A stretch of DNA of 51,926 nucleotides from contig JAPLJI010000154.1 of assembly GCA_026388655.1 (NCBI GenBank), forward strand, positions 1 through 51,926. Direction: 5' to 3'. The notes under the pieces were generated by a model, which saw only the letters and a program-made list of their open reading frames with translations, was not told the origin of the DNA and made no database searches. The DNA is from Pseudomonadota bacterium (GTDB lineage: Bacteria; Desulfobacterota; JAPLJL01). The position numbers and the translations under genes were made by a program. This document shows positions 4,800-9,814 of the stretch, piece by piece (position 1 is the stretch's first letter; each line of letters begins with the position of its first letter).

Positions 4800-4896
4800 G
4801 TCATTCCCGCGAAGCTTGTCCTCGAATTGTTTAATCGGGGAGCGGGAATCCAGTGTTTTTAAGAATCTACTGGATCCCTGCTTCCGCAGGGATGAC
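4800..4896. repeat. Head-to-head pair of dRS3-like palindromic repeats (empty pair)
   Basis: The left arm (4800-4853) starts GTCATTCCCGCG and ends GCGGGAATCCAG, with its loop enlarged by extra sequence. A 16-bp spacer follows, then a right arm (4870-4896) starting CTGGATCCCTG and ending GGGATGAC. The layout gtcattcc...ggaatccag-spacer-ctggat...gatgac is the same as around the GIY-YIG gene at 7842-8196, but no gene is present. The core resembles the neisserial dRS3 type (ATTCCC-N8-GGGAAT). Confidence 0.7.
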
Positions 4897-7235: not shown

Positions 7236-7275
7236 TAACCCTCCTTTTCATTCGCGAAATGGTGTAATAATCTAT

Positions 7276-7499
7276 TGTAGTGCGTCGTAAATTCCTTTAC
7301 CGTAGTTGTCATTCCGGGCTTGACTAAGCCTGCCCCGGACTTGATCCGGGGGAATCCAGTTCCAATTGAATGGTTCCCTGCTTTCGCAGGGACGGCGTCT
7401 GGATTCCCGCTGGAGTTTATCCTGAGCGTAGTCGAAGGGCGGGAATGACAGTCAAAAAAATCATATAATGAAATGTAAGGAAGCGTTAGACGCACTACA
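7276..7499. mobile_element. 224-bp MITE-like element with imperfect terminal inverted repeats
   Basis: TGTAGTGCGTC (7276-7286) and GACGCACTACA (7489-7499) are perfect 11-bp inverted ends. The similarity extends inward imperfectly through TTCCTTTAC on the left and its counterpart GTAAGGAA on the right (7476-7483). No transposase is encoded. The middle is occupied by a dRS3-like head-to-head pair, which appears to have been inserted into it. Confidence 0.6.
7308..7449. repeat. dRS3-like head-to-head repeat pair nested in the 224-bp element
   Basis: The left arm 7308-7359 runs GTCATTCCGGG...GGGGGAATCCAG and the right arm 7399-7449 runs CTGGATTCCCGC...GGGCGGGAATGAC. Both have enlarged loops; the right one contains a 'tttatcctgagcgtagtcg' phrase. 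The spacer (7360-7398) holds a weaker third hairpin (CCCTGCTTTCGCAGGG). Confidence 0.65.
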
Positions 7500-7822
7500 C
7501 TAGTATATGACGTGCTTGAATTCAAAGTTGTTTTCAAAATAATGCTCACGGACAAATCCTGATGGCAAAAAATAACCGAAACAACCCCACCGGGTCAACA
7601 ATCAGGTTTTTCTCATACCTATCCAAATTATCCAACAACTTCCGAAGGGAAGATGCGTTGAGGACTTGGTTTTATGAATCGTTTATTTTGCCCCCTCACC
7701 TCTCCGAGCCGTAGGCTCCTACCCTCCGGCCTGTAAGCCCTACGGGCTGGAAGCGGAGCCGGAGGCCCCGCCCTCTCCTTCAGGAAGAGTGCCCCTCAGG
7801 ACGAGTCCCTCGAGGGGCATAA

Positions 7823-8228
7823 GCGCTAACTTAGACGTAGAGTCATTCCGGCGAAAGCCGGAATCCAGAGCGACATCAGTGAATAAACAGCCAGCAGTAT
7901 ACATTTTGGCGAGCAAACGAAATGGTACCCTTTATATCGGGGTAACTTCAGACCTCGTTAAAAGAATATGGGAGCATAAAAACAATCTGGTAGAAGGATT
8001 TACTAAACGCTACAATGTTCATCAACTGGTTTGGTATGAATTACACGAGAGTATGGAATCAGCTATTGAACGGGAGAAGCGATTGAAAGAATGGAAACGA
8101 AAGTGGAAACTGGAATTGATTGAGAGCAGTAATCCAAATTGGCAGGATTTGTATCATATAATTCTTTGACTGGATTCCGGCTTTCGCCGGAATGACGAAT
8201 GACAAACCCTCAATTCTTAAGTTAGCGC
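7823..8228. mobile_element. GIY-YIG-carrying unit bounded by two nested sets of inverted repeats
   Basis: The outer arms are GCGCTAACTTA (7823-7833) and TAAGTTAGCGC (8218-8228), a perfect 11-bp inverted repeat. The inner arms are a 27-bp sequence at 7842-7868 and its exact reverse complement at 8170-8196. Each inner arm is itself a hairpin: ATTCCGGC, a GAAA loop and GCCGGAAT. The gene fills the interior: its GTG start lies 10 bp from the left arm and its stop codon abuts the right arm. Gene-less pairs with the same layout occur at 4800-4896, 7308-7449 and 9738-9803. I infer a mobile or formerly mobile repeat unit whose full form carries the nuclease. Confidence 0.65.
7879..8169 (+). CDS. Small GIY-YIG endonuclease
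   Basis: 96 residues from a GTG start chosen because it follows the left inverted repeat; the frame is open further upstream but only through repeat DNA. The GIY-YIG core is read as 'AVYILASKRNGTLYIGVTSD', where VYI stands for GIY, followed by LVKRIWEHK with the conserved Arg and His. The catalytic-side motif is 'SAIEREKRLKEWKRKWKLE' with the expected Glu, and the family ending 'SNPNWQDLY' is intact. Length is normal for this single-domain family (about 90-100 residues). All key residues seem present, so it may be active. No recognisable DNA-binding domain is attached. The ribosome binding site is poor. Its near-perfect enclosure by inverted repeats suggests it belongs to the repeat unit rather than to a host pathway. 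Confidence 0.9.
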   Translation: MNKQPAVYILASKRNGTLYIGVTSDLVKRIWEHKNNLVEGFTKRYNVHQLVWYELHESMESAIEREKRLKEWKRKWKLELIESSNPNWQDLYHIIL

Positions 8229-8249
8229 GTATACCCACCAGGGGAGAGG

Positions 8250-9635
8250 GTGAAATTGTTAATTGGGACAGCTGTGAGGTTTTCCTGGATTTTCATTCTC
8301 GTCTTTCTGCTCTCTTTTCTCTCCTGCGCGGGCGAAAAACAGGCGGATTGGACCCTTCTTTTTTATTTTGACGGGGATAACAGCCTGGCGGAAGACGCTT
8401 TCAAGGATCTGCAAGAACTGGAAAGGGTGGGTTCCAACCCCCAAATACGTCTCGTCGCCCAGGCGGATTTTCCCCAAAACTATAAGCCGGATTTGGCGGC
8501 CACCCGCCGGTTCGAGATCATCCAGGACGATGATCCCGAAACCCTGACCTCTCCCCTCCTCGAATCCCTGGGCGAGGCGGACATGGCCGACCCCCGGACC
8601 CTCACCGATTTTATTATCTGGGGGAAGAAGAATTTTCCCGCCCTCAGCTATGCTCTTATTCTCTGGGACCACGGTGAAGCCTGGTACCAGGAGTCGATCA
8701 CCAGCCAAACTACGGAAGTTCAAGGTTCAAGGTTCCTGCCTGCGCCAAGGCTCCGGCAGGCAGGCAAAGCTCAAGGTTGGAAAACACCTAGCCACCTAGC
8801 CACCCAACCACCAGTTTTTTCCCCTCAACCCGAAGCCATCTTTCTCGATGAGGATAATCATTCCGACCTGATGAAAAATTTTCAGCTTCGGGAAGCCCTC
8901 GAAGCCGCCGGGGTTCATTTCGACCTGCTCGTGTTCGACGCCTGCATTATGGCGACTGTCGAGGTGGCCTACGAGTTGAAAGACCAAGCGGATATTATGG
9001 TAGCCTCCCAGGAGCTGGTGCAGAACAACGGCCTCCCTTATGACGTGATTGTGGCCGGGATCAATGAGAATCCCGAAAAAACCGCGGAGGAACTGGCCGC
9101 GGGCATCGTTGACGATTACCGGGATTACTGCGAAGAAATCTATTATCCCCAGGGCTTGCGCCCCGACCAGACCCTCTCCGCCATCCGCCTGGGGATCGAC
9201 CTCTCCACCCTGGCCTCCGTGGTCGACCAGACGGCTCTACATTTTTTGAATAATCTGCCGGCTGAGGCGGAGAATATTTTCTCGGCTCGAAACGAGGTGG
9301 AAGAGTTTGAATTCGCGCCCTTCCGCGCCCATTTCTACGTGGATCTGTACGATCTCTTTTCCCGGTTAAACCCGCCGGCCAATCTGATCGCCGGCTTCTC
9401 GGAAGGATTCTCCCGGACGATTATCCGGGAATATCACGGCCCGGTTCACCCCCAGACCCACGGGCTTTCGATTGTCTTTCCCAAAACCCCGGACGCGAAC
9501 AGCAATTATGACCCGACTTATTCGGATTATGACCCCGCCTCCGGAACCGGCAGTCCCAGCCTGTTCATGCAGTTATCCTGGGACAATCTCCTCTCCGAAT
9601 ATTACCGGCTTAAATACCCCGGGATCATCCCTTAA
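8250..9635 (+). CDS. Clostripain-family (C11) cysteine peptidase, lipoprotein
   Basis: 461 residues from GTG 8250; TTG 8256 or GTG 8274 are possible starts, since GGGGAGAGG lies at 8241-8249. The signal peptide ends in a lipobox-like FLSC. The C11 fold is recognised from 'LLFYFDGDNSLAEDAFKDL', the catalytic His in 'ALILWDHGEAW' and the catalytic Cys in 'LLVFDACIMATVEVAYEL', followed by 'DIMVASQELV'. C11 peptidases are Arg-specific enzymes that usually self-process. Between the His and Cys motifs is an in-frame insert of about 36 residues (8714-8817) that is plainly repeat DNA: CAAGGTT units, a CCTGCCTGC/GCAGGCAGG hairpin and CACCTAG units. The peptide EVQGSRF it encodes recurs in the M16 protein at 13648-14982. 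The insert lies in a surface-loop position, so activity may survive. Confidence 0.87.
   Translation: MKLLIGTAVRFSWIFILVFLLSFLSCAGEKQADWTLLFYFDGDNSLAEDAFKDLQELERVGSNPQIRLVAQADFPQNYKPDLAATRRFEIIQDDDPETLTSPLLESLGEADMADPRTLTDFIIWGKKNFPALSYALILWDHGEAWYQESITSQTTEVQGSRFLPAPRLRQAGKAQGWKTPSHLATQPPVFSPQPEAIFLDEDNHSDLMKNFQLREALEAAGVHFDLLVFDACIMATVEVAYELKDQADIMVASQELVQNNGLPYDVIVAGINENPEKTAEELAAGIVDDYRDYCEEIYYPQGLRPDQTLSAIRLGIDLSTLASVVDQTALHFLNNLPAEAENIFSARNEVEEFEFAPFRAHFYVDLYDLFSRLNPPANLIAGFSEGFSRTIIREYHGPVHPQTHGLSIVFPKTPDANSNYDPTYSDYDPASGTGSPSLFMQLSWDNLLSEYYRLKYPGIIP
8714..8817. repeat. Composite repeat inserted in frame in the C11 peptidase gene
   Basis: Three parts are visible: a CAAGGTT-type array (8715-8735), a hairpin with CCTGCCTGC/GCAGGCAGG arms (8735-8764), and after AGCTCAAGGTTGG a CACCTAG/CCACC array (8788-8814). 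The first part matches 14311-14331 (opposite strand) over 21 bases. Confidence 0.75.
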
Positions 9636-9737
9636 ATTGACCCCAGGGTATCTTTCTCAAAACGATTCGTAGCTGGTTTGTCGTTCCCGTCCCCCATCAG
9701 AGTGCGGGATAAACTCCAGCGGGAATCCAGCTCTCCC

Positions 9738-9803
9738 GTCATTCCCGCGGAAGCGGGAATCCAGGCGAAAAAATACTGGATTCCGCATCGAGTGCGGAAT
9801 GAC
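9738..9803. repeat. Compact empty pair of dRS3-like repeats
   Basis: The left arm 9738-9764 (ATTCCCGC, GGAA loop, GCGGGAAT within gtc...ccag) and right arm 9776-9803 (ctggattccgca...tgcggaatgac) are separated by only 11 bp. It is the cleanest gene-less version of the arrangement seen around the GIY-YIG gene. Confidence 0.75.
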
Positions 9804-9814
9804 GGAAATAAACC

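Follow-up and report, generated by a model that had tools for sequence, protein, structure and literature searches.

A GIY-YIG nuclease gene enclosed by head-to-head CGTC-type REPs: a probable REPtron-like unit with nested inverted repeats

The window analyzed here, by which we mean the whole 51,926-nucleotide stretch of DNA, contains a small gene for a GIY-YIG nuclease that is enclosed by two nested pairs of inverted repeats (Table 1). The two inner arms (7842-7868 and 8170-8196) are 27 nt long, 100% complementary, and spaced by 301 nt, and they are the sole perfect inverted pair of at least 20 nt within 1 kb across the whole window. They frame the gene closely: the GTG start at 7879 is 10 bp past the left inner arm, and the right inner arm begins at 8170, the base right after the TGA stop codon (8167-8169). 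The outer arms are exact over 11 nt and can be extended to 28 nt at 79%; when the two 60-bp flanks were shuffled 3000 times, no shuffle gave outer arms of at least 11 nt. Both pairs, with their positions and their perfect complementarity, are as an earlier note on this DNA had described them.

Table 1. Coordinates of the nuclease unit and of related repeats in the window
Feature	Position	Strand	Details
Solitary divergent REP copy	4870..4896	-	
Gene-less nested element	7264..7511		Outer arms 7264-7286/7489-7511 (differ from those of the unit) around two interrupted REPs, 7308-7359 and 7399-7449
Left outer arm	7806..7833	+	11-bp exact core 7823-7833 GCGCTAACTTA; short-spacer end; extended 28 nt at 79%
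Left inner arm	7842..7868	+	CGTC-type REP (here AGTC), 8-bp stem, GAAA loop, CCAG tail
GIY-YIG nuclease gene	7879..8169	+	GTG start, TGA stop, about 96 codons, purifying selection
Right inner arm	8170..8196	-	Same REP, inverted
Right outer arm	8218..8245	-	11-bp exact core 8218-8228; long-spacer end
Gene-less REP pair	9736..9805		Tags outward (head-to-head type)

The protein matches the GIY-YIG family of Pfam (PF01541, E 4e-18) and has the conserved GIY-YIG residues (Y, YxG, R, and E), with Y7, Y18, G20, R28, and E65, and also N84, invariant in this nuclease family. The dN/dS values of the gene (0.05-0.11) indicate purifying selection. AlphaFold2 models the protein with a predicted GIY-YIG fold (pLDDT 95.7), to which the GIY-YIG domains of UPF0213, the UvrC N-terminus, and Slx1 are the nearest folds. 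By sequence as well as fold, UPF0213 GIY-YIG proteins (PDB 1zg2 and 1ywl) are the nearest solved structures; they are ~25% identical to the window protein, and distant GIY-YIG hits in the genomes have no arms.

Like the GIY-YIG homing endonucleases (PHROG 314 and TIGR01453), with which its product has the catalytic domain in common, the gene is located inside the type of site that it may recognize. Unlike them, the unit has no intron, and the proposed target is not a long unique site but a hairpin repeat; sequence matches to these enzymes are only weak, with that to TIGR01453 under its cut-off. Searches of the INPHARED reference phages and of E. coli gave no match to the protein, and its assignment to a known defense system was rejected, the PADLOC matches being weak only. 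Similarly, the unit corresponds to no known RNA family, the only hit being a sub-threshold one to SorX at 7751-7818. Relatives of the protein are encoded on 31 IMG/VR contigs (L229-L259), which may be possible vehicles or host contamination.

As single-stranded DNA, each inner arm is predicted to form a hairpin with an 8-bp stem and a GAAA loop (-9 kcal/mol, z ~ -5), which agrees with what the earlier note had read from the letters. The anatomy of an arm is a GTC tag, an 8-bp stem starting with AT, a 4-nt loop, and a CCA tail (CCAG in the window); the tag reads CGTC in the right arm and AGTC in the left, where the GTC is kept, and the consensus among homologues is C/T-GTC. CGTC-tagged REPs were described by Di Nocera, De Gregorio and Rocco in 2013 (PMC3733652) as having a tag CGTC, or its variants TGTC and CCTC, a stem of 8-9 bp starting with AT, a loop of 4-5 nt, and a CCA-like tail, and in their family CGTC-1 the tag, stem, loop, and tail are as in the window arms. 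These repeats occur in many bacterial phyla, as many dispersed intergenic copies among which head-to-head dimers predominate, and the same survey found neither a dedicated enzyme gene flanked by them nor a dedicated transposase (PMC3733652). By this anatomy, the inner arms are CGTC-tagged REPs that match family CGTC-1, and they are like that class also in their many intergenic copies and, around the gene and at 9736-9805, in head-to-head pairing. The Neisseria repeat dRS3, ATTCCC(N8)GGGAAT (PMC3898611; for dRS3-type repeats see also PMC2911385), is of the same kind. What sets the present case apart from the CGTC REPs of Di Nocera et al. is that a GIY-YIG gene is REP-flanked in most close homologues.

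Allowing up to 3 mismatches, the inner-arm sequence has three matches in the window versus 0.00 expected from shuffles. Two arm copies in the window stand without a gene (4870-4896 and 9738-9764), and a degenerate REP pattern finds 100 copies in the window's own genome versus 0 for the reversed pattern, so that the gene-less copies reported earlier are confirmed; all REP counts per genome given here come from such pattern searches. The REPs are head-to-head around the gene and at 9736-9805, and 20 repeat loci sampled from the genome had few close pairs, in mixed orientation. Among 87 distinct arms, gathered without requiring inner-stem pairing, this pairing amounts to 95.8% versus 75.0% in shuffles (maximum 78.2%); as pairing had not been demanded, it is the hairpin that is conserved and not a fixed sequence. 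Several REPs, at L022, L051, G121, G157, and window positions 7308-7359, have a second GC-rich hairpin in or beside the loop (e.g., GGCGAACCCCGGATCGGGGTCCGGGGCAGGCGCC), and this recurrent insertion may point to a site where cuts or insertions are favored.

Strong hairpins on both sides of a gene might also be read as terminator-like structures of an ordinary host gene. This explanation is exceedingly improbable, however, because the tag and tail are conserved beyond the stem, ~100 copies are dispersed over the genome, the distribution is patchy, and given sites have the unit in some genomes only, as described below.

Although the inner arms belong to an abundant repeat, the outer arms do not: an outer arm has 2 exact copies only in the genome, and at 3 mismatches its count is not above the reversed control. 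A search of 297 genomes for the pattern GCGCYAASTTA - spacer - GTCATTCC gave just 7 places, and none for the reversed pattern; 2 of the 7 belong to the window unit, one each is beside the nuclease gene in G090 and G121, 2 are in G157, and a partial one is in G075. The two in G157 are complete gene-less nested elements (a REP pair between two outer arms), and gene-bearing nested versions are found in the window, G121, and L051. In elements with two visible ends, a short spacer marks one end and a long spacer the other. Compared with the window, L051 and G121 have these ends swapped around the gene, which is expected if the interior can invert between its arms. The existence of the nested structure with and without the gene argues for a conserved element and not for a coincidence at the window locus.

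It may be asked whether the outer arms instead delimit a separate MITE or transposon, moved by an unrelated transposase, with the REP-nuclease unit inserted into one copy of it. Such an origin would account for the outer arms of the gene-less G157 elements and for the other outer arms around the REP pairs at 7264-7511, and CGTC dimers are known to be sometimes embedded in longer palindromes (Di Nocera et al., PMC3733652). On the other hand, 4 of the 7 places with the combined outer-arm and REP pattern are beside the nuclease and 2 are complete gene-less elements, and we consider a separate transposon unlikely.

Further repeats surround the unit. The 7264-7511 element, with outer arms TGTAGTGCGTC..., has a copy in G001:C294 (226 bp aligned at 87% identity), and G002 contains partial copies. 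Another dispersed repeat (CCCCCTCACCTCTCCGAGCC...) occupies 7686-7783 and has dozens of copies in two congeners, at up to 95% identity over 93 bp. In addition, a repeat-like stretch at 8716-8810 (AAGTTCAAGGTTCAAGGTTCCTGCC...) lies in frame within the C11 peptidase ORF at 8250-9635 and shares 62 bp at 89% with a site in G002.

The association of gene and arms can be followed across homologues, 80 of which were fetched from named genomes at 62-89% identity, including a gene of Neisseria gonorrhoeae. Those that could be classified belong to nine phyla, and the cassette of gene and repeats occurs in at least as many. The nearest named homologues of the window protein come from Desulfobacterales and other deltaproteobacterial MAGs, which makes a lineage related to these likely for the window's organism. 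Inverted arms scoring at least 30 were found within 300 bp of 60 of the 78 homologues, the shuffle maximum being 29. Once more genomes were included, a tagged repeat was found no more than 300 bp away from 107 of 117 close homologues, and the same type is present on both sides in 77 of 117, a figure that is a lower bound: even the window is missed, as its left tag reads AGTC. Near distant GIY-YIG genes such repeats were seen in 0 of 12 cases, and random control placements in the same loci had any repeat in 14 of 293 cases and repeats on both sides in 0 of 293. The earlier note had proposed to test whether the same arms recur around close homologues, and would have seen a refutation in arms no more frequent near GIY-YIG genes than elsewhere in the genome; arms of the same kind do recur around close homologues, and they are commoner there than at the control placements.

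Between the window and its homologues, DNA similarity starts at 7842 and stops at 8196-8199, that is, at the outer edges of the inner arms, and this is seen in other families and phyla. Loci at which similarity is limited to the stretch from arm to arm include L023, L047, L052, L055, L062, and L084. In these alignments, the sequence that the genomes have in common terminates with the inner arms.

The cognate repeats differ by nuclease subclade, and can be written as GTCATTCCnGC...ATCCAG, GTCATYCTGAG...ATCTC, GTCATTGCGAG...AATCTC, GTCATTTCGAC...AAATCTC, and GTCATTGCCCG...CAATCCAG. Mapped on the protein tree, in which many forks are unresolved and which is built on a short protein, the repeat type changes 5 times (minimum 4) versus a shuffled mean of 12.9 (0/200). 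On this tree, the type of repeat is linked to the nuclease subclade, and the window's genome has three paralogues, each with its own repeat variant.

These results bear on whether the gene is simply a passive cassette, spread by homologous recombination between abundant REPs as any gene would be, with no special relation of nuclease and repeat. REPs are indeed abundant, and between inverted copies the interior can flip, which would fit the swapped ends of L051 and G121. However, passive spread fits poorly with a repeat type that tracks the nuclease subclade, with armless distant GIY-YIG genes and double arms in 0 of 293 control placements, and with the enrichment of repeats in carriers reported below; we regard it as quite improbable.

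Several sites allow genomes with and without the unit to be compared. In Azospirillum lipoferum 4B (L179), the gene is located between sufB and sufC and is bordered by REP pairs left and right, and three relatives with flanks ~95-97% identical have no CGTC-type repeat and no gene at this position. The L179 unit splits the sufB-sufC operon, which is continuous in the relatives. On Sphingobium plasmids, some isolates have the armed gene between fnrL and a response regulator and others lack it, and two gene-less isolates have, at the fnrL site, a palindrome composed of one half of each arm (exactly so in one), perhaps an empty target or the scar of a deletion. A pair of Shinella genomes shows the same contrast. 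As judged from these comparisons, relatives differ at a given site in whether they hold the unit; this applies to homologous units and not to the one at the window site.

Palindromes with a REP tag at both ends and no tail were noticed in L185 (Sphingobium TomTYG64) and L175 (4 vs. 296 ordinary REPs among the loci examined); they are possibly scars or empty targets. Rhizobium plasmids and the S. meliloti hflX-mazG site were set aside as insertion cases, as the gene is present and the boundaries are too repeat-rich to define an insertion. At the Azospirillum, Sphingobium, and Shinella sites, neither a target-site duplication nor a clean junction was established. For the window unit, no syntenic empty site was found: the adjacent C11 peptidase is unmatched in both congeners, in which DNA matches around the unit are mostly repeats or the gene itself. 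The question raised in the earlier note, whether syntenic loci exist with and without the unit, is thus answered by presence and absence in the three genera, though not for the window site.

Repeat load and nuclease presence were compared in 297 genomes of the phylum, where 29 of 60 carriers and 12 of 237 non-carriers have at least 20 type A or C repeats (p = 1.5e-14, relatedness uncorrected). MAGs may be incomplete or contaminated, the genomes are related to one another, and copies were counted by pattern, all of which limits such numbers. As predicted by their arms, G048 and G174 have almost only A repeats, and G053 and G146 have C repeats only. Eight genomes with at least 20 copies, some of them incomplete MAGs, have no detectable close nuclease, and 19 carriers have <5 copies of either counted repeat type (A or C). 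That the gene-less copies stem from the unit, as the earlier note suggested, is plausible, but those eight genomes stand against it. Together with the 19 carriers, they also speak against a strict dependence between REPs and nuclease. The more general idea of a repeat unit carrying its own nuclease gains support from the flanking arms, the syntenic presence and absence, and the enrichment of repeats in carriers.

A parallel exists in the REPtrons, in which RAYT (TnpA-REP) genes are associated with GTAG REPs (PMC6006769). In these, as in the window unit, a single-copy enzyme gene is placed between inverted copies of its presumed substrate repeat, with type-specific pairing and a patchy distribution. 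RAYT, however, is a Y1 HUH nuclease with GTAG REPs, whereas the window unit combines a GIY-YIG nuclease with a CGTC-type REP; it is therefore no member of the RAYT REPtrons and would be alike only in the way it works. Our reading, to which we give a probability of roughly 0.7, is that the locus is a small REPtron-like unit, namely a GIY-YIG nuclease gene between head-to-head cognate CGTC REPs, within a rarer outer inverted repeat.

A second parallel is the Ssn family of GIY-YIG site-specific single-strand nucleases, which, according to a report from about 2025, act on a repeat of the dRS3 kind in Neisseria meningitidis and others; in Neisseria, Ssn is also reported to have an effect on transformation. 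The window unit resembles this family in its small GIY-YIG protein and its cognate repeat of the dRS3 kind, and on our reading its nuclease would be of the Ssn kind. The homologue in N. gonorrhoeae DSM 9188 (L093), with 69% identity to the window protein and such repeats nearby, is presumably the characterized Ssn. The description of the locus as an undescribed system was too strong, since CGTC-tagged REPs and dRS3 form a described class of repeats and the Ssn family has reportedly been presented.

The nuclease could also be a factor of genome dynamics that cuts single-stranded REPs, for example in natural transformation, with the REPs spread by recombination or other enzymes and the flanking REPs serving regulation or inheritance through inter-REP recombination. 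The reported effect of Ssn on transformation, the gonococcal homologue with its repeats, and the many genomes that retain REPs without the gene all favor such a role, although arm-to-arm similarity across phyla and presence or absence at single intergenic sites, one of them inside the suf operon, resemble the movement of a discrete unit. We place its likelihood just short of an even chance; our confidence in it overlaps that in the REPtron-like unit because a nuclease that acts in transformation and one that mobilizes a unit are not exclusive.

If the locus is a REPtron-like unit, the GIY-YIG protein would recognize the GTC tag and hairpin of a REP when it is single-stranded, on the lagging strand at replication or in DNA taken up, and would nick it at that point. 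The gene-bearing unit could then be moved or homed through repair, or through strand transfer from one REP copy to another, and the same events might multiply gene-less REPs, as has been proposed of the HUH RAYT enzymes for GTAG REPs. On this view, the nested elements that lack the gene would be the same element in an empty or decayed state. Cleavage and mobilization by the nuclease are what we infer from sequence, helped by the analogy with Ssn.

On the strength of these sequence patterns, the GIY-YIG nuclease is a strong candidate for the dedicated enzyme of CGTC REPs. More tentatively, and at somewhat less than even odds, we propose a widespread class of prokaryotic mobile elements in which a GIY-YIG single-strand nuclease homes into its own REP pairs and has created the CGTC-REP families, with a repeat code specific to each subclade. 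The enclosure of the gene by REPs, the match of repeat type and subclade, and the enrichment in carriers make the origin of CGTC REPs testable on one protein: if this nuclease family is the partner, the question of what makes and moves these repeats would become a direct test of a ~96-residue protein. In addition, since many nucleases are naturally paired with different hairpin repeats, they would form a ready collection on which sequence-specific cutting of single-stranded DNA could be studied and possibly put to use.
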